Assembly: GCA_903903935.1 (NCBI GenBank)
Contig: CAIVAX010000285.1
Span: 1 to 10,830, forward strand
DNA length: 10,830 nt
Reading direction: 5' to 3'
Source: an uncultured Hyphomicrobiales bacterium
GTDB taxonomy: Bacteria > Pseudomonadota > Alphaproteobacteria > Rhizobiales > Beijerinckiaceae
Below, in pieces: positions 2,386 to 10,830 of this stretch. The translations under genes were made by a program, and so were the position numbers. Under the pieces are notes generated by a model that was not told the DNA's origin, made no database searches, and saw only the letters and a program-made list of their open reading frames with translations. The stretch's first letter is position 1. Every line of letters begins with the position of its first letter.

Positions 2386-2961
2386 TCAGCCCATCATGAA
2401 AAGGACTGGGCTCAGCAATAAGCTGAGGCGGGCAATCATCCAGCCCAAAAGTGCACCCACCAGAACGTCAGAGGGATAATGCAATCCCAGCACAACGCGT
2501 GAGGCCGCAATCAGGCAGGTAAAGGGCAGCAGCACAAGCGCCAAAGCCGGGCAATAATGGATGGCCATGGTCGAAAACAAAACCGCATGCAAAGTATGGC
2601 CCGATGGAAAGCTATATTCATCGAGCGGGGGCATGGCACATTCAATCCCGATCAAACCAATAAAGGGCCGCTCACGCACCATTTTCGTCTTCAGCACTTT
2701 ATAGACGGACAGGCCAATCGCACCGCCCACCAGCATTGTTAGCGCCGCTTGAACGCCCAAGAGCGGATGCGAGACATCAATCAACACAGGCATAGCGAGC
2801 ATCAGCCCATACCAGACCACGCCATCGCTCAGACGACTAATGCCGCGGAAAAAACTCTTGATCATGTGACGACGACAAAAGGCATTGGCCAAACGACACG
2901 CCTTATATTCCGCTTCATCAGCCCAGTTGAAAAATTGCTCTATGGTCATGTTACACGTCAC
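2386..2961 (-). CDS. PAP2-superfamily membrane phosphatase (phosphatidic acid phosphatase type)
   Basis: 191 aa from GTG 2961, or 187 aa from the in-frame ATG at 2949; neither has a clear Shine-Dalgarno site. All three PAP2 signatures are present: K91-x6-R98-P99, P119-S-G-H122, and S154-R155-x5-H161-x3-D165. H122 and H161 should be the general acid and nucleophile, with D165 assisting. Hydrophobic stretches at about 50-62, 68-90, 123-150 and 165-188 make it an integral inner-membrane enzyme. Its small size fits the PgpB/phosphatidate phosphatase kind; undecaprenyl-diphosphate or lipid A phosphatases share these motifs. It follows the glycosyltransferase by 41 nt on the same strand, so it is probably its second cistron. 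In that setting, releasing diacylglycerol and phosphate from phosphatidate is the attractive role, but the substrate is inferred. Confidence 0.9.
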   Translation of the reverse strand: MTCNMTIEQFFNWADEAEYKACRLANAFCRRHMIKSFFRGISRLSDGVVWYGLMLAMPVLIDVSHPLLGVQAALTMLVGGAIGLSVYKVLKTKMVRERPFIGLIGIECAMPPLDEYSFPSGHTLHAVLFSTMAIHYCPALALVLLPFTCLIAASRVVLGLHYPSDVLVGALLGWMIARLSLLLSPVLFMMG

Positions 2962-3002
2962 TTTGTCAGGCTGAGAAATCTTGCAATTACGTCTTTTTAA
3001 AA

Positions 3003-4151
3003 TCAGAGGCTTTCATAAAGACCCACAAGCTTTTTGGCTAAATCTTGCGAGCTCCAGCGCAAGGCATCCTGCACTGCATGACTTGATAACCCATCTCTGT
3101 GACATTTATTTTGCAGAACCATGGCAACCGCCTGGGCAAATTCAAGCTCTTGTTCAGGAACAATAATTCCGCCCTGTACCCCGGCCATCACATCGGCTGT
3201 GCCCATCACGGCTGTGGACACAACGGGCGTGCCCTGTGCCAAAGCTTCCAAAATCACCAGCCCTTGAGTCTCAGTACGGGAGGCAAAAACAAACACATCG
3301 GCCGAGCGATAACAGTCGAGCAAGCCATGGGCGCGATCGAGATAGCCGACAAACCGAACGTGATCTTGCAAACCCATCGTTTTAACAAGCCGCTCAATAT
3401 GGCTTTGCGCCGGGCCCTCTCCTGCTACGACCAATAAAGCATTGGGCACGATTTGCTTGAGCTGCTGCATCATGCGAATGAGAAAATCGATATTCTTCTC
3501 ATGCGCCACCCGCCCCACATAAAGGGCAACGGGCCGATCGGGCTCAATGTTCATACGCGCACGAAATCGATCGCGATCACCCTGTTCAAAGGCCGCAGCG
3601 GACATCCCCGTTGGCAAAATGCTGATGGGTTTTGTGACACCATAATCGCGCAAGGTCTGCGCCATTTGCGGTGACGGCGAAATCACATGATCGACATCCT
3701 GACATTGCGACAGGCTTAAACGGCGCGCCAGCCCCTTAGTAAAGCTTGAAGGCAGCAGCGGCACATAATGATGCAGATAATGCTCGAAGTAGGTATGATA
3801 GGTTTCGATCGTGGGAATGTTCAATTGCCGTGCCAGCTTCACACCCATATAATGGGCAGTGAAGGGTGTCTGAATATGAATGGCATCAAACCGCCGCGAG
3901 TCGATCGATCGCGCCCAGGCTTTCAAGCGCGTCCAGCGCAACAACCGATCTTCTGGATCAAAGGGAACTTGCCAAGAGTCAATGCGGACGATGTCCTGAT
4001 CATCAGCTACTTCAGGCGGAATCTTATAAGCTGGCGCAACAAGAGTGCACTCATGCCCAAGTTGGCGCAGATCATCCCGATAGGTCTTAATCGATGTGGA
4101 GACCCCGTTCACGCGGGAAAAATAAACATCGGAAATCATCAAAATCTTCAT
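3003..4151 (-). CDS. GT4-family glycosyltransferase, possibly glycolipid-forming
   Basis: 382 aa, retaining GT-B glycosyltransferase. The N-terminus has the acceptor-side Rossmann start MKILMISDVYFSRVNGVSTS (NGVSTS at 15-20), followed by IHIQTPFTAH (91-100) and ETYHTYFEHY (116-125). The C-terminal nucleotide-sugar domain has GRVAHEKN (213-220), VVAGEGP (241-247), and the E-x7-E motif ETQGLVILE (294-302) in the FVFASRTETQGLVILEAL context. This opening is typical of cytosolic, membrane-associated GT4 enzymes such as MgtA/PimB and diacylglycerol glucosyltransferases. Donor and acceptor are not determined. The ATG at 4151-4149 starts the family's usual N-terminus, but the only Shine-Dalgarno-like bases (GAGA, 4159-4156) lie in a hairpin. 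It is the first gene of a likely operon with the PAP2 phosphatase and diverges from the SRPBCC gene across two Pho-box-like sites. My favoured role is making a non-phosphorus glycolipid from diacylglycerol. Confidence 0.9.
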   Translation of the reverse strand: MKILMISDVYFSRVNGVSTSIKTYRDDLRQLGHECTLVAPAYKIPPEVADDQDIVRIDSWQVPFDPEDRLLRWTRLKAWARSIDSRRFDAIHIQTPFTAHYMGVKLARQLNIPTIETYHTYFEHYLHHYVPLLPSSFTKGLARRLSLSQCQDVDHVISPSPQMAQTLRDYGVTKPISILPTGMSAAAFEQGDRDRFRARMNIEPDRPVALYVGRVAHEKNIDFLIRMMQQLKQIVPNALLVVAGEGPAQSHIERLVKTMGLQDHVRFVGYLDRAHGLLDCYRSADVFVFASRTETQGLVILEALAQGTPVVSTAVMGTADVMAGVQGGIIVPEQELEFAQAVAMVLQNKCHRDGLSSHAVQDALRWSSQDLAKKLVGLYESL

Positions 4152-4152
4152 G

Positions 4153-4171
4153 GAATCTCGGTATGAGATTC
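4153..4171 (-). other. Hairpin directly before the glycosyltransferase start codon
   Basis: GAATCTC (4153-4159) and GAGATTC (4165-4171) form a perfect 7-bp inverted repeat with a 5-nt loop, ending 1 nt from the ATG of the minus-strand gene. The GAGA that could act as its ribosome site lies in one arm. It could regulate translation or be a protein-binding dyad. Whether it is transcribed depends on the unknown start point. Confidence 0.4.
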
Positions 4172-4173
4172 AC

Positions 4174-4191
4174 ATGACGGTTTCATGTCAT
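4174..4191 (-). promoter_or_regulatory. Degenerate Pho box (PhoB site) facing the glycosyltransferase/PAP2 operon
   Basis: Read on the minus strand the 18 bases are ATGACAT-GAAA-CCGTCAT. Against the Pho box pattern CTGTCAT-N4(AT-rich)-CTGTCAT this matches 5 of 7 and 6 of 7 repeat positions, with the correct 11-bp period and an A-rich spacer. A weak -10 candidate, CATACC (4165-4160), lies 8 nt downstream. That would put the transcript start only a few bases before the ATG, giving an almost leaderless mRNA. The site is plausible because it pairs with a near-perfect box 32 bp away facing the opposite gene. Confidence 0.45.
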
Positions 4192-4222
4192 CCCGCTCTC
4201 CTCCCATGTTGCAATAATAAGT

Positions 4223-4240
4223 CTGTCATCACACTGTCAT
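4223..4240 (+). promoter_or_regulatory. Pho box (PhoB-binding site) upstream of the SRPBCC gene
   Basis: The 18 bases are CTGTCAT-CACA-CTGTCAT: two identical heptamers with a 4-bp spacer, giving the 11-bp period of PhoB dimer sites. Both repeats equal the E. coli consensus heptamer. A -10-like CATTCT (4247-4252) begins 6 bp beyond the box, placing transcription start near 4259 and a short leader before the GTG at 4276. PhoB boxes normally replace the -35 element in just this geometry. It implies induction by phosphate starvation through PhoR-PhoB. Confidence 0.8.
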
Positions 4241-4275
4241 ACTCCTCATTCTCAACACGTGAGGGGAGTGGAGCT

Positions 4276-4857
4276 GTGCGCCTGATTCGATTTATAATGT
4301 TTAGAGCTGCCCTGTTAGCCCTGTGTCTCACGCCGTCTATGTCTGGCTTGGCCCTTGAGGCCTCTGATGAGCCGACCATTGCAACATCTTATGACAGCAA
4401 AGCAGATACGACGCAGATCCGCGCCTCAATTGTTATTAAGGCAAGCCCAAAGTCGGTCTGGTTCACTTTGAGCGATTGCGACAATGCCCCCAAGGTCATT
4501 CCTGATCTGGAAAGCTGCAAAGTGATTGAGAGAGATCCCGCCAGCCGTTGGGATATCCGCGAACATGTGATCTCCCCCCGCTTATTGCCTCGGTTCAAAA
4601 CCATTGTGCGCAATGAGTTCACGCCATGTCAGAGATTGAAATTCAAATTGCTCGAGGGTGATCTGCGCTTATCAGACGGAAGCTGGACACTCAAAGCCCA
4701 AGGAGACACAACGCTTTTGTCTTATGAGGCTGTGATTGCCACCAAGATCAGCGTGCCGCAATTTATCATCACCCAATCCATTGAGTCTGATTTTCCTAAA
4801 ATGCTCAAAGCCATCCAAAAGACGAGCCTACAGCAAACAAAAGCGCCTGCGTGCTAA
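4276..4857 (+). CDS. Exported SRPBCC/START-like (polyketide cyclase family) protein
   Basis: 193 aa from GTG 4276, which has GGAG (4265-4268) 7 nt before it. The frame is open further upstream to an ATG at 4150, but that would translate the divergent promoter and Pho box, so I reject it; ATG 4297 is a possible shorter start. Residues 1-26 are a signal peptide (MRLIRFIMFR, then hydrophobic AALLALCLTP, cleavage likely after GLA). Residues about 45-185 resemble the SRPBCC fold: a first strand IRASIVIKASPKSVWFTLSD (the usual 'V-W' start), a middle DLESCKVIERDPASRWDIRE, and a C-terminal helix FPKMLKAIQKTSLQQ. SRPBCC domains hold hydrophobic ligands such as lipids and sterols. An exported copy under a Pho box, opposite lipid-modifying genes, suggests periplasmic lipid binding or transfer; that is inference. 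Confidence 0.82.
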   Translation: MRLIRFIMFRAALLALCLTPSMSGLALEASDEPTIATSYDSKADTTQIRASIVIKASPKSVWFTLSDCDNAPKVIPDLESCKVIERDPASRWDIREHVISPRLLPRFKTIVRNEFTPCQRLKFKLLEGDLRLSDGSWTLKAQGDTTLLSYEAVIATKISVPQFIITQSIESDFPKMLKAIQKTSLQQTKAPAC

Positions 4858-6865: not shown

Positions 6866-7126
6866 CATTTTGCAGTGCAAAAAAGCAATTAATTTTTACC
6901 AAATCAGTCAAGAATAATTGTCTAAAATAGCTCGCTTCAGCGTTTGTCACCCACCATCAAATAAGGCTGATTGCAAAGATTTTTTATAATTGAAATCAGC
7001 GTGCACGTCATCGCTGTTGCTATGGACAAAAGGTCGTGGCCAAGCTAGTTTGCATCGTGGATTGCAAGGAAACGCAAGCAACACAAAAGACTGATTACAA
7101 CATCGGTCAAAACCATGAGGGCATCT
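6866..7126 (+). promoter_or_regulatory. Leader and promoter region of the PQQ dehydrogenase
   Basis: This gene-free stretch of about 260 bp is AT-rich in its first half. A perfect -10 hexamer TATAAT (6985-6990) has no good -35 at 16-18 bp, which points to an activated promoter. The hexamer is enclosed by an inverted repeat GCTGATT (6966-6972) / AATCAGC (6994-7000). A start near 6997 would leave a leader of about 130 nt. GATTGCAA occurs both here (6969-6976) and again near 7060-7066. No convincing leader peptide is seen. Confidence 0.5.
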
Positions 7127-8890
7127 ATGAACATTCAATCGCTACTACGATCGACTGTGCTTGGTACGACGCTACTGGCGCTCGTAGCAGGAACCGCAAT
7201 GGCGCAAACGCCAGCGGCGAGCCTGCTGAGCAAGCTCACCCCAGTCACCGACGACATGCTGAAGAACCCGCCGGACAGCGACTGGCTGATGTGGCGCCGC
7301 ACCTACAATGGCTGGGGCTATAGCCCGCTTGATCAGATCAACAAAGACAACGTCAAGGATATGCAGCTGCTGTGGTCCTGGGGCCTGACCCCCGGCGGCA
7401 CAACGCAGGAAACTCCACTCGTCCATGACGGCGTGATGTATGTTCAGAACTCAACTCATCTGATCCAAGCACTCGATGCGTCATCAGGTGAATTGCTCTG
7501 GCAATATCAATATCGTTTGCCCGATGGCGTGTCCCCCAATGGTGAACGCGCCAAGGCTCTGTATGGCGATAACCTGATTGTTGCGACACGTGACGCGCAC
7601 ATTCTCGCCATCAATGCCAAGACCGGTAAATTGGTCTGGGATCAGCAAGTCGCCGATTACAAAAAAGGTTGGGGCTATTCCTCTGGTCCGATCGTCGCCA
7701 ATGGCGTGATCGTTCAAGGCATGACCAATTGCGGCAATGCCGAACCCGGCGGCTGCTTCATCACTGGTCATGATTCCAAGACCGGTAAGGAAATGTGGCG
7801 CATTAACACCATTGCCCGCGGCGATACGCCTGAAGGCAATAGCTGGAACGGCATTCCCGTCGAATCGCGCTATGGCGCCTCGGCTTGGATTTCCGGCTCC
7901 TATGACCCAGACCAAAATTTGGTGTTCGCTGGTGTTGGCCAACCCTATCCATGGCCAGCTGTGATCAATGGACTGCTGCCAAAGAGCCCAGATCCTAAAG
8001 TCACCAACAATGCCGCTTATACTGACTCGACCCTCGCCATTGACCCCAAGACGGGCAAGCTGGTCTGGCATCATCAGTATCTGTCAACCGATACGCTTGA
8101 TCTTGATTATGTCTATGAGCGCTTGCTGATTGACCTTCCCGTCAATGGCCAGACCCGCAAGACTGTCGTGACCAGCGGTAAATTGGCCATCATCGAAGCC
8201 ATTGACCGCGTCAACGGCGAATGGCTATGGGGCAAGGAAACAGTTCCACAGAACGTCGTGACGGCAATCGACCCGAAGACTGGTGCCAAGACCATCAATC
8301 CCGCGGTCATTCCGCAGATTGGTCAGACAACCTTCAACTGCCCGGCTGACCCCGGCGGTCGCGCTTGGCAGTCCACATCCTACAGCCCGAAGACACGTAT
8401 GCTCTACATGCCGACGGCTGAATATTGCTCCAACACTGTGCTGAACCCGCTCGATCAGGGTCAGGTTTACACAGGTGGTGGTCTGGCCACATACAATCGT
8501 GTGCCTGTGCCCAATGGCGATGGCAAGATTGGCCAAGTTCGCGCTGTGAAGCTCGATGACCGGACAGATGCATGGATGTATCGTCAATATGCCCCGATCA
8601 CGACCTCCACTCTGCCCACAGGCGGTGGATTAGTGTTCGTTGGTACATTGGATCGCAAGCTCCTCGCTTTTGATGACACATCAGGCAAGTTGCTGTGGTC
8701 GAGCCCGTCCTTCACCAACTCGATCGAGTCCTTCCCGATCACCTTCTCCTCACAAGGCAAACAATATGTGGCTGTTGTCACAAATTGGTCCTCTGGCCTT
8801 GGCCGCTTGAAGCTGCTGACGCCTGATATTGCTCTGCCTGCACATAACCCCCATGAGGTTTATGTGTTCGGTCTGCCTAAGAAGTCTTGA
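7127..8890 (+). CDS. Periplasmic PQQ-dependent alcohol dehydrogenase (methanol/ethanol dehydrogenase family, divergent)
   Basis: 587 aa from ATG 7127, with GAGGG (7117-7121) 5 nt upstream; an in-frame ATG at 7115 lacks such a site. Residues 1-26 are a signal peptide ending AMA before QTP. The body is an eight-bladed quinoprotein propeller, with tryptophan-docking repeats such as DASSGELLWQYQY, NAKTGKLVWDQQV, DSKTGKEMWR, DPKTGKLVWHHQY and DDTSGKLLWSS. Numbered from this start, C202 and C210 flank E206 where the family's metal-binding Glu lies, W240 is in GNSWNG, Q272 stands in AGVGQPYPW where the metal-binding Asn is normal, and D325/D327 (TLDLDYVYE) form the Asp-x-Asp seen in lanthanide enzymes. 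It should oxidise an alcohol or aldehyde and pass electrons to a periplasmic cytochrome c. Length suits a type I enzyme without a fused heme domain; no CxxCH is present. The substrate is unknown. Confidence 0.92.
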   Translation: MNIQSLLRSTVLGTTLLALVAGTAMAQTPAASLLSKLTPVTDDMLKNPPDSDWLMWRRTYNGWGYSPLDQINKDNVKDMQLLWSWGLTPGGTTQETPLVHDGVMYVQNSTHLIQALDASSGELLWQYQYRLPDGVSPNGERAKALYGDNLIVATRDAHILAINAKTGKLVWDQQVADYKKGWGYSSGPIVANGVIVQGMTNCGNAEPGGCFITGHDSKTGKEMWRINTIARGDTPEGNSWNGIPVESRYGASAWISGSYDPDQNLVFAGVGQPYPWPAVINGLLPKSPDPKVTNNAAYTDSTLAIDPKTGKLVWHHQYLSTDTLDLDYVYERLLIDLPVNGQTRKTVVTSGKLAIIEAIDRVNGEWLWGKETVPQNVVTAIDPKTGAKTINPAVIPQIGQTTFNCPADPGGRAWQSTSYSPKTRMLYMPTAEYCSNTVLNPLDQGQVYTGGGLATYNRVPVPNGDGKIGQVRAVKLDDRTDAWMYRQYAPITTSTLPTGGGLVFVGTLDRKLLAFDDTSGKLLWSSPSFTNSIESFPITFSSQGKQYVAVVTNWSSGLGRLKLLTPDIALPAHNPHEVYVFGLPKKS

Positions 8891-8895
8891 TCCCT

Positions 8896-8914
8896 AAGCG
8901 TTCGCGCTTCTTTT
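8896..8914 (+). terminator. Short TTCG-loop terminator after the PQQ dehydrogenase
   Basis: AAGCG (8896-8900), loop TTCG, then CGCTT (8905-8909) is followed by CTTTT (8910-8914). The stem is only 5 bp but carries a stable tetraloop and begins 5 nt after the stop. It may end part of the transcripts, so that the dehydrogenase is made in excess over the downstream binding protein. Confidence 0.5.
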
Positions 8915-8920
8915 AAAAAT

Positions 8921-8957
8921 CATCGGGACGGATCGGATTTTCCGGTTCGTCCCGATG
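8921..8957. other. Long stem-loop between the PQQ dehydrogenase and the binding protein gene
   Basis: CATCGGGACGGATCGG (8921-8936) pairs with CCGGTTCGTCCCGATG (8942-8957): ten outer pairs, a three-base mismatch and three inner pairs, with a 5-nt loop. There is no T-run after it on the plus strand; the AT tract (ATTTTT on the minus strand) lies on the other side. On the plus strand it is better read as a 3'-end stabiliser or attenuator within an operon. Confidence 0.55.
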
Positions 8958-8975
8958 TTCCAATGAGGTCACAGA

Positions 8976-9836
8976 GTGCGCGTCATCAAAGCTGTTTTTC
9001 ACGCCTCACTGCTCCTGCTGGCCGCATTGATTCCCCTTTTGGCTGGCGCACCTGCCTTTGCACAGCAAGAACCAGAATTTTACAATGATCAGCCCTATGC
9101 CCCCAATGAATGGATGATTGGGCGCCGCATGGACCAATCTGAATTTCGCTATTGTGTGGATACACGCGACTCAGCTTGGCAGGAAGATGGGGCGATCGCC
9201 GATGCCATTGCCCAAGCGCTCTTGCTACAACCCCAGCGCTATGTGATCCCGAGTGAAATGGTCGCCGAAGATCTGACCAAGATCTATGCCATCTTGTTAG
9301 AAAAGTGTGACATCATCATGGGATTCAAGCTGATCCCCAGTGGCTATCCAGGATGGCTGACAGCCACACGCGCGTATAAAGAAATCGGCTATTCCTTCAT
9401 CACGCCACGATCAGACGTGAAAACTCTGGCGGACCTGCCGCCCTTGCGCGCTATTGCAGCAACTGGTGGAACAACGGCGCATATCAGGCTTGTGTCTTAT
9501 AATCTCTCACTGCCGATCGAGAAACGCTGGCTCGTCTACCCCTTCGGAAATGATCAACTCGCTTTGAACGCCGTTCTAACCAAAACAGCCGATATGGCGC
9601 TGGTCTGGGAATCGAGCTTCTTGGCCTTGCAAAAGGAAGATCCGGCCTATCGCGATTTTCATATTATTGCCCCAGCACCCCTACCCAGCACATTGCTCGG
9701 CGTGGGCGGTGTGATCTTGAAGCAAAATACCTTCTTGCGCTCAGCGGTTGACCAAGCCATTACGGCTCTGTCAAATGATGGGACGATCAAAGCTATTCTG
9801 GCCACTAAGAAACCAGCCGCACCGAGCAAGCCCTGA
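8976..9836 (+). CDS. MoxJ/XoxJ-like periplasmic binding protein associated with quinoprotein dehydrogenases
   Basis: 286 aa from GTG 8976, with GAGG (8965-8968) 7 nt upstream. Residues 1-29 form a signal peptide (LLLLAALIPLLAG, cleavage after AFA before QQE). The rest is a family 3 solute-binding fold of the MoxJ type: FRYCVDTRD at the first strand, IADAIAQALLL, KCDIIMGF...PSGYPGWLTATRAYKEIGYSFI, then DVKTLADLPPLRAIAATGGTT, and a closing FLRSAVDQAITALSNDGTIKAIL. C60 and C111 match a conserved cysteine pair and may form a disulfide. MoxJ/XoxJ proteins are encoded with PQQ methanol dehydrogenases and are thought to help mature or activate them, not to feed a transporter. It lies 85 nt after the dehydrogenase, on the same strand, behind two hairpins. 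The expected cytochrome c (XoxG/MxaG) is not in the window. Confidence 0.87.
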   Translation: MRVIKAVFHASLLLLAALIPLLAGAPAFAQQEPEFYNDQPYAPNEWMIGRRMDQSEFRYCVDTRDSAWQEDGAIADAIAQALLLQPQRYVIPSEMVAEDLTKIYAILLEKCDIIMGFKLIPSGYPGWLTATRAYKEIGYSFITPRSDVKTLADLPPLRAIAATGGTTAHIRLVSYNLSLPIEKRWLVYPFGNDQLALNAVLTKTADMALVWESSFLALQKEDPAYRDFHIIAPAPLPSTLLGVGGVILKQNTFLRSAVDQAITALSNDGTIKAILATKKPAAPSKP

Positions 9837-9851
9837 TGCGGATCCAGCTCA

Positions 9852-9882
9852 GTGACGAATGGACCATTCAGTCACCTATAAA
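9852..9882 (+). promoter_or_regulatory. Dyad overlapping a possible promoter before the ABC ATPase gene
   Basis: GTGAC-GAATGG (9852-9862), a central A, then CCATTC-A-GTCAC (9864-9875) form an 11-bp dyad with one bulged base. A -10-like TATAAA (9877-9882) begins 2 bp later, and GTGACG or TGACGA inside the left arm could serve as the -35 (18-19 bp spacing). That arrangement would suit a repressor operator. Without a T-run it is less likely to be a terminator for the preceding gene. Confidence 0.4.
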
Positions 9883-9907
9883 AATCTGCAGTTTCGGAGG
9901 ATGATTT

Positions 9908-10830
9908 GTGACTATTGCTGAACCCGCTATGCGCATTGCCAATGTCACGAAACGCTATGGCCGAACTCTGGCGCTCGATGGCGTGAGTTTTGATGTTCCG
10001 CGCAATAGCATGTTTGCTTTGCTTGGACCAAATGGGGCCGGCAAAACAACTCTGATGCATATTCTCAGCACAATCCTCGCCCCTGATTCTGGCACAGCGG
10101 AAATTGCCGGCTTTGATGTTGTGCGCGACCCCCTTGAAGCGCGCAGCCGTCTTGGCATTGTCTTTCAAGAACCAAGCTTAGATGACCGCCTAACAGTGCG
10201 TGAGAACCTCAACATTCACGGCCTTGTTTTTGGCGTACCCCAACCCTTACGGCGCCAACGTATTGCTGAAATGCTGGAACTCGTCGAGTTGACTGAGTGG
10301 GCCGACAAGCCCGCACGCACGCTCTCAGCAGGCATGAAGCGCCGCGTCGAAATCGCCCGCGCTCTGATTCATGATTCTGAAATCATGCTGCTGGATGAAC
10401 CCACCGCCGGGCTTGATGCACAAAGCCGTCAACGTATGTGGGAATATGTGCGCCGCCTGCAAACCGAACGACAGCTCACCCTTTTTGTCACCACCCATTA
10501 CATTGAAGAGGTCGAGAATTGCGACCGCGTTTGCATCATTGATCATGGCAAAGTGCTTGCCATTGACTCTCCCGATGCACTGCGCCACCAAATGGGCGAA
10601 CAAATTCTGATTTTCACGCCACGCACCGAGGCCGATCGCAGCGCCATTCTGGCGCGCTATTCTGACCGCTTGGTGCGCGATAACAGCTCAGGCATTGTGC
10701 TGAAAGCCGATGACAGTTTCATCGAAACCTTCCTCGATCAATTTGGCAACCGTGTGCGCTCGCTCTCTACGCAAGTCCCTAGTCTTGAGACAGCCTTTCT
10801 GTCACTGACTGGACGTGAGTTGCGCGATAA
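9908..10830 (+). CDS. ABC-2 type exporter ATP-binding protein (DrrA/NodI-like); 3' end outside window
   Basis: The frame starts at GTG 9908 with GGAGG (9896-9900) 7 nt upstream and stays open for 307 codons to the window edge. All ATPase motifs are intact: Walker A GPNGAGKT (40-47), Q-loop Q87 in IVFQEPSLD, signature LSAGM (139-143), Walker B IMLLDEP (159-165) and the switch histidine H197 in TTHYIEE. The TLSAGMKRRVEIARAL context and AGLD after Walker B are typical of exporter ATPases paired with an ABC-2 permease (DrrA, NodI, CcmA-like). A C-terminal extension (about 235-307) with SFIETFLDQFG and PSLETAFLSLTGREL matches DrrA-type tails. An ABC exporter ATPase is a known companion of PQQ alcohol dehydrogenase clusters (PedC in pseudomonads), so a role in the quinoprotein system is plausible but unproven. 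The cargo is unknown, and the permease would lie past the window end. Confidence 0.93.
   Translation, partial: MTIAEPAMRIANVTKRYGRTLALDGVSFDVPRNSMFALLGPNGAGKTTLMHILSTILAPDSGTAEIAGFDVVRDPLEARSRLGIVFQEPSLDDRLTVRENLNIHGLVFGVPQPLRRQRIAEMLELVELTEWADKPARTLSAGMKRRVEIARALIHDSEIMLLDEPTAGLDAQSRQRMWEYVRRLQTERQLTLFVTTHYIEEVENCDRVCIIDHGKVLAIDSPDALRHQMGEQILIFTPRTEADRSAILARYSDRLVRDNSSGIVLKADDSFIETFLDQFGNRVRSLSTQVPSLETAFLSLTGRELRD

Follow-up and report, generated by a model that had tools for sequence, protein, structure and literature searches.

Does the grouping of a membrane phosphatase, a glycosyltransferase and an exported protein of a lipid-binding fold around a Pho box mark a locus for the remodelling of membrane lipids, and what would each of the three proteins contribute? 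The locus in question lies in contig CAIVAX010000285.1 of GCA_903903935.1, a metagenome-assembled genome (MAG) of an uncultured Hyphomicrobiales bacterium; the draft comprises 2.6 Mb in 583 contigs at 82% completeness, and the window analysed here is the entire contig (C285, 10,830 bases). The window's own MAG is designated G000 and its contigs bear C-numbers; G-numbers denote genomes and L-numbers fetched loci. The genes for a PAP2 phosphatase and a GT4 glycosyltransferase are on one strand, with their listed open reading frames (ORFs) 41 bases apart, and the gene for a START/SRPBCC protein is divergent from them:

2386-2961, minus strand: PAP2 membrane phosphatase (Pfam PF01569, catalytic motifs, PDB relatives LpxE and PgpB)
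3003-4151, minus strand: GT4 glycosyltransferase of 382 aa, here called GT4-I (Pfam, NCBIfam, motifs)
4174-4191, minus strand: weaker Pho-box-like repeat ATGACATGAAACCGTCAT 5' of the GT4 gene, 3 mismatches
4223-4240, plus strand: perfect tandem Pho box CTGTCATCACACTGTCAT 5' of the SRPBCC gene
4261-4268, plus strand: purine-rich sequence GAGGGGAG resembling a ribosome-binding site, before GTG 4276 (read from the sequence)
4276-4857, plus strand: exported START/SRPBCC (Polyketide_cyc) protein of 193 aa (PF03364, AlphaFold2, sequence)

The gene families, their arrangement and the Pho box, as described in an initial annotation of this DNA, are confirmed. We estimate a probability of roughly 0.6 that the locus is a PhoB-controlled membrane lipid-remodelling module with a PAP2 phosphatase, a GT4 glycosyltransferase and an exported START carrier.

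Neighbourhoods of the START protein in related genomes

The SRPBCC protein is encoded by 10 of 61 genomes, including the window's own. A scan of genome contigs with the single protein gave no match; a scan with the alignment, restricted to two conserved peptide patterns, identified 15 SRPBCC loci (12 close and 3 distant). Besides the window, all 12 close loci possess phosphate-stress lipid or transport genes of plcP, btaAB, agt or pst-phoB type; on the window contig, such neighbours are GT4 and PAP2 only. The names PlcP, BtaB, Pst, PhoU and kinase denote likeness to reference ORFs that were named by recognition; BtaA (DUF3419), PhoX, PhnH, PhnI, PhnJ, the phosphonate-binding protein and the PhoB of C378 were verified by models, and Agt by published motifs. 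In L046 and L047, plcP-btaA-btaB faces PAP2-GT4, followed by the SRPBCC gene; in L045 (G001), the SRPBCC gene is accompanied by btaAB, plcP and a shortened GT4-I copy (L045:6429-6905), with the full copy and PAP2 on another contig, L064. The order is SRPBCC-agt-plcP in L044; the SRPBCC loci L048 and L049 have btaAB; L050, L051, L052, L053 and L055 have pstSCAB-phoU-phoB-plcP, agt, a small ORF and the SRPBCC gene; and L054 is a short contig with agt. Close protein relatives come from a MAG labelled Alphaproteobacteria bacterium (SRPBCC 88%, GT4 91%, probably on one contig), and the others from MAGs labelled Beijerinckiaceae, Hyphomicrobiales, Rhizobiales or Rhizobium.

The lipid-remodelling role proposed in the initial annotation gains support from these plcP-, btaAB- and agt-type neighbours. 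Lack of conserved linkage had been named beforehand as grounds for rejecting it, and all three genes were seen in L046, L047 and G001, with plcP in the same locus as btaA, btaB and the three genes in L046 and L047, and the genes split over two contigs in G001. The further suggestion of an alternative route replacing plcP did not hold up, as all three of these relatives carry plcP. As for the three-gene set itself, the linkage stands, but the pairing of GT4 with PAP2 is not confined to the set and recurs in another proteobacterial class.

The lipid-remodelling block of L047 (and, by likeness only, that of L046) adjoins the C-P (carbon-phosphorus) lyase genes phnHIJ and genes for a phosphonate-type transporter (L047:12227-17333), which makes the L047 region a phosphorus-economy island; a phosphonate-binding protein is encoded on this contig as well, in the stretch designated L034. 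The ORF between agt and the SRPBCC gene in L050, L051, L052, L053 and L055 encodes a Lys-rich product of 129-145 aa (e.g. L050:8552-8965); that of L050 has no Pfam match and a weak NCBIfam match below cut-off (Rv3852 family). Among the distant SRPBCC loci, L089 and L093 adjoin family-2 glycosyltransferase-like ORFs and L089 also a FabH-like ORF (by likeness only), hinting that the wider family may serve other lipids. The notion that the SRPBCC family is always devoted to lipid remodelling was ruled out by the location of distant relatives elsewhere.

Control by phosphate

The Pho consensus CTGTCATNNNNCTGTCAT, as printed in PMC8528852, has 14 fixed bases. The box at 4223-4240 matches it with 0 mismatches, all 14 fixed bases included, and ends 35 nt before GTG 4276. 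At up to 3 mismatches the window contains 5 matches, compared with a mean of 0.86 in shuffled sequence (0 of 200 shuffles reached 5). In the draft genome this is the only site with 0 mismatches, and 22 sites have at most 2 mismatches versus 1 for a reversed control pattern; the two sites with 1 mismatch are on C378, in the vicinity of genes of pstB and phoU type and of a phoB scoring above the NCBIfam PhoB cut-off. Also on C378, downstream of phoB and after a 1-mismatch Pho box, is the gene for a likely Pho-controlled phosphoesterase (L042:3328-4633): its 407-aa product begins with a stretch resembling a signal peptide and weakly matches Metallophos.

The box facing the GT4 gene (p 0.007 by shuffles) has the same 11-bp phase, with a third in-phase half-site reaching 4163, and ends 22 nt before the ATG. 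Of the six GT4-I loci, four (window, L047, L045 and L064) have a best box that ends 22 nt (three loci, the window among them) or 23 nt (one locus) from the start; the distance is 13 nt in L065 and 89 nt in L046. With so little space (22 nt) between box and start codon, the transcripts must be almost leaderless unless some of the true starts are further downstream. Pho boxes thus face both divergent transcripts, with 0 mismatches for SRPBCC and 3 for GT4, the latter with similar boxes in relatives; together with the enrichment over shuffles and reversed pattern, this agrees with the phosphate-starvation control that had been proposed.

Combined p values, which overstate independence given that the sequences share ancestry and that both G001 copies of GT4 (L045, L064) enter as separate loci, are 1.6e-7 for the SRPBCC upstream regions (12 loci including the window; 6.6e-6 without it), 2.2e-5 for those of GT4-I (six loci; 2.6e-4 without the window) and 6.5e-4 for those of btaA (six loci), with 3.3e-7 for pstS as positive control (five loci) and 0.95 for a neighbouring small ORF as negative control (five loci). 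Underlying these statistics are upstream stretches of 150 nt and a pattern of 14 bases, with a revised L044 start and four added loci. An earlier run, with 8 SRPBCC loci, hand-drawn stretches of 120-200 bases and 13 pattern bases, was weaker (p 0.95 for L044, 0.68 for L048, 0.52 for L045, 0.11 for L050 and 0.09 for L046), and the better final values are partly due to the revised setup.

The phosphatase, the glycosyltransferase and PlcP

The PAP2 protein scores 75.8 bits against PF01569 (cut-off 27.2) and contains all three of the motifs that we take to be the catalytic signature of the family, K-x6-RP, PSGH and SR-x5-H-x3-D (as KTKMVRERP, PSGH and SRVVLGLHYPSD), which are also found in all nine relatives checked. 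Its closest sequence matches in the PDB are the membrane lipid phosphatases LpxE and PgpB. Translation might also plausibly begin at ATG 2949. That PAP2 and GT4 form an operon, as had been supposed, fits their common strand and 41-base gap; in L047 and L064 the genes share 4 bases.

The GT4 protein scores above the cut-offs of PF00534 and PF13439. Among NCBIfam models, alpha-monoglucosyldiacylglycerol synthase (NF049988) fits it best, at 154.7 bits (155.2 in a second search), below the cut-off of 400. The Agt/GTcp clade of GT4 is characterized by the uridine diphosphate (UDP)-sugar motif GRVAxEKN and by FPSxTDTFG with the catalytic Asp (PMC8231724). The window's enzyme has the first motif (GRVAHEKN) but carries FASRTETQG, with Glu for Asp, in place of the second; 10 other GT4-I sequences have FASRTETQG, FASKTETQG or FSSKTETQG, and five of six full enzymes of the second type have FPSxTDTFG or FPSRSDTFG (the G636 enzyme matched no pattern). 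The second motif rules out that GT4-I is an ordinary Agt; the window's enzyme is 31% identical to the Agt-type enzyme of L037. JGI labels several of the GT4 relatives listed 1,2-diacylglycerol 3-alpha-glucosyltransferase, and others cell-wall glycosyltransferase.

GT4-I was found in 5 of 61 genomes at a threshold of 1e-60 and, at 1e-110, in 5 of 398 phylum members (the window's own counted in both) and in 1 of 385 class genomes, namely G000; at 1e-90 it was found in 40 of 369 genomes of the class of G765. The named GT4-I and PAP2 relatives listed are labelled Gammaproteobacteria or Steroidobacteraceae, apart from those of Alphaproteobacteria and Beijerinckiaceae. GT4-I is patchy in the window's class, to which it may have been transferred from another. 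The 42 wider GT4-I loci comprise all 40 from the class of G765 plus G636 and G445: PAP2 of this subfamily (17 loci) or PlcP (16 loci) lies within the stretch in 28, and both in 5. Directly upstream of GT4-I on the same strand (overlaps counted as adjacent), PAP2 is found in 12 and PlcP in 5; with one downstream case, same-strand adjacency of PAP2 and GT4 amounts to 13 of the 42. Reference-free clustering of the neighbouring ORFs, named by sequence likeness, recovered PAP2, PlcP and a PhoB-like regulator in 11 loci each, a histidine kinase in 8 and PstB in 7. In the window and in four of five loci of its genus, PAP2 instead lies immediately downstream of GT4; that these partners occur together in two gene orders argues for function and against mere inheritance of a block. 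PhoX is encoded next to GT4 in G028 and after PAP2 in G006. A control for chance neighbours (11 loci, 151,576 bases) yielded 0 PAP2 and 1 PlcP, the latter in L040, itself an SRPBCC locus beside a pst operon; L036 is also a close SRPBCC locus, and the nine clean loci are distant-SRPBCC loci, not random DNA.

Among nine GT4-I genomes, which have at most one copy of this PAP2 subfamily each (1e-15), G028, G445 and G636 have PlcP without PAP2; G001, G020 and G476 have both, which rules out a general replacement of PlcP by PAP2; in G006, PAP2 is accompanied by no more than a 47-residue piece of PlcP close to the end of a contig; in G765, whose GT4 and PAP2 lie near genes of pst type, the sole PlcP match is 27% identical and perhaps LpxH; and G000 has PAP2 and no PlcP match, so that none of the nine is without both. 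An exchange of PlcP and PAP2 beside the same GT4 is plausible, and PAP2 may stand in for PlcP in some organisms, with G765 as a candidate; for the window's organism this is no more than a possibility. PlcP was found in 46 of the 61 genomes, in some as fragments. Sought three times in G000, plcP gave no match in this 82% complete draft, which we do not read as true absence because contig C211 breaks off within agt, on the side where plcP is found in relatives: in seven related loci with a full agt (L044, L050-L053, L055 and L065), plcP adjoins it tail to tail. This part of C211 (L043:1-2734) encodes the truncated Agt-type GT4, 72% identical to the Agt of L037 over 183 aa and 27% to the window's GT4, together with btaA-btaB and Pho-box-like sites. 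The window's organism probably also makes betaine lipid via BtaA-BtaB, and Agt glycolipid.

The exported START protein

The SRPBCC ORF as listed begins at 4150. GTG 4276 is preferred as the start because the earlier one would place the perfect Pho box inside the coding sequence, and because GTG 4276 is preceded by GAGGGGAG, opens a signal peptide and is the point from which relatives align. The signal peptide is predicted at about residues 1-26, as read from the sequence; the rule used across the alignment is a crude one without a control. The protein belongs to the START/SRPBCC family both by its match to PF03364 (50.2 bits; gathering cut-off 23.4) and by an AlphaFold2 model with the START helix-grip fold (predicted local distance difference test score, pLDDT, 94.6). 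Thus the description as an exported START-like protein holds from GTG 4276 onwards. A Cys pair at mature residues 42 and 55 is kept in 62 of 62 close alignment rows, including the window's, and the polar residues D67, R69, E70, R86 and D103 are nearly invariant. The model aligns near full length with lipid-transfer START domains (155 residues on bacterial 3qsz and on StarD4, 163 on CERT 2z9y) at about 10-14% sequence identity; unlike them, the window's protein is predicted to be exported and has the conserved Cys pair. Aromatase/cyclases and hormone receptors of START fold are also among the top matches.

Proposed mechanism and alternatives

During phosphate shortage, PhoB would bind the tandem box between the divergent genes, a box that is partially conserved. 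PAP2 would dephosphorylate phosphatidate or a similar lipid phosphate to diacylglycerol, beside or instead of PlcP, a role suggested by its family and by the exchange with PlcP next to the same GT4. GT4 may then add a sugar to diacylglycerol or glycosyl-diacylglycerol, giving a phosphate-free glycolipid. The exported START-fold protein would hold a two-tailed lipid in the periplasm, between the inner and outer membranes, and might take phosphate-free lipid outward or bring phospholipid or diacylglycerol back. This carrier role, suggested by fold, predicted export and genomic company, is the boldest step of the proposal. An extended form, in which the START protein would be a dedicated Pho-controlled periplasmic shuttle of surrogate lipids (betaine lipid, glycolipid) or of the diacylglycerol precursor between the membranes, so that the outer membrane is remodelled too, and in which PAP2-GT4 would supply the whole glycolipid branch where plcP is absent, is offered tentatively and is on balance doubtful.

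Several observations weigh against a remodelling module with a carrier. Five of the 12 SRPBCC upstream regions are without a good Pho box (L045, L046, L048, L053 and L055; p 0.22 to 0.99), and the plcP upstream regions give p 0.18 (five loci). Both PAP2 and PlcP are missing from fourteen of the 42 stretches fetched for the wider GT4-I loci, nine of which are shorter than 15 kb owing to contig ends. Distant SRPBCC relatives are in unrelated neighbourhoods: phosphate-stress lipid or transport genes accompany 0 of 3 from the alignment scan and 0 of 6 among six of the ten other genomes matched in 397 members of the order, one of which, G037 (as L041), was compared only with the window's proteins and the PlcP, PAP2 and GT4 references. 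Enzymes and receptors also have the START fold, JGI labels several SRPBCC relatives RatA-type toxin or AHSA1/START protein, and no membrane partner of the START protein was identified. If GT4 and PAP2 remodel lipids, the SRPBCC protein could still act as a sensor that binds lipid, as a chaperone for a lipase of the periplasm or as an enzyme with a START cavity, its nearly invariant polar residues being catalytic or ligand contacts. That it aligns over nearly its whole length with START domains that transfer lipids, and that lipid-synthesis genes accompany it, speaks for a carrier instead, and we regard these other roles as rather unlikely.

A place for GT4 and PAP2 in the metabolism of undecaprenyl or envelope polysaccharides is clearly unlikely; PAP2 would then recycle undecaprenyl pyrophosphate and GT4 glycosylate a polymer or lipopolysaccharide, such that phosphate would change the cell surface and not the bulk lipids. 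Many of the best 120 PAP2 homologues are named 'undecaprenyl-diphosphatase' by JGI, many of the best 120 GT4 homologues are named 'involved in cell wall biosynthesis', and undecaprenyl-diphosphatase models are among the NCBIfam matches, below cut-off; but PlcP-, Pho- and Pst-type genes are the commonest neighbours, with bta and phoX in the window's genus, PlcP and PAP2 swap at the same place beside GT4, and among NCBIfam models GT4 best fits a diacylglycerol glucosyltransferase. Weak PDB matches to PhoN-type acid phosphatases, and the other phosphate-scavenging genes that surround the locus in relatives, would suit a periplasmic phosphatase that scavenges phosphate and lies beside GT4 through shared Pho regulation only. 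With LpxE and PgpB as the closest PDB matches, and same-strand adjacency to GT4 recurring in both gene orders, we judge this decidedly improbable.

Comparison with known systems

Remodelling by plcP, agt and btaAB is known (PMC9239053, PMC4796936, PMC8528852). PlcP-Agt glycolipid remodelling has been described in Methylosinus trichosporium (PMC9239053), Pseudomonas aeruginosa (PMC8528852) and SAR11 (PMC8231724; see also PMC4796936). Like these systems, the window has a Pho-box-linked GT4-family enzyme beside a candidate diacylglycerol-producing enzyme, and its relatives have plcP- and agt-type genes in the loci concerned; unlike them, its GT4 is without FPSxTDTFG, PAP2 adjoins in place of PlcP and an exported START protein is added. 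The plcP-btaA-btaB loci for the betaine lipid diacylglyceryl-trimethylhomoserine (DGTS) are type 1 of PMC4796936. Similarly, btaA-btaB and plcP directly adjoin PAP2-GT4-SRPBCC in L046 and L047, and btaAB is on C211 of the window's genome, whereas the window contig has no bta genes, and the section of PMC4796936 on these loci does not mention PAP2 or SRPBCC. The co-occurrence of agt and GT4-I in one organism resembles, by description and not by sequence, the two separate Pho-controlled diacylglycerol glycosyltransferases Agt1 and Agt2 of P. aeruginosa (PA3218 and PA0842; PMC8528852).

The PAP2-GT4-I pair and the exported START protein were not found as remodelling parts in the open-licence literature searched. 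No open-licence paper was found that links SRPBCC with the Pho regulon or plcP (subscription papers and supplements lay outside the search), or that treats a polyketide cyclase with phosphate starvation, PhoB and lipid. PAP2 was not found in a lipid-remodelling context in this literature, being mentioned only in two papers off topic by title; in the available text of PMC4796936, 'phosphatidic acid phosphatase' occurs once, in the reference list, and that of PMC5082522 mentions PlcP and not PAP2. By title, no listed open-licence match concerned a START protein with betaine lipid, periplasm or phosphate; the periplasmic sterol carriers in the available text of PMC10942540 are non-START.

Flanking genes

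On one side of the locus (1233-2384) the window encodes a protein that ends in a Tlde1 domain (97 bits) and whose long N-terminal part matches no Pfam family. Downstream (7115-10830) are genes for a quinoprotein resembling pyrroloquinoline quinone (PQQ)-dependent alcohol dehydrogenase, a small exported-looking protein and an ATP-binding cassette (ABC) ATPase related to a PQQ alcohol dehydrogenase system.

Implications

To our knowledge, the delivery to the outer membrane of phosphate-free lipids made at the inner membrane is unexplained for Gram-negative lipid remodelling. An exported START protein with plcP-, btaAB-, agt- or pst-phoB-type neighbours in 12 of 12 close loci besides the window is a concrete candidate for lipid delivery. 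The exchange of PlcP and PAP2 beside the same glycosyltransferase points to a candidate second source of diacylglycerol, which would bear on surveys that rely on plcP as the sole marker of lipid remodelling.

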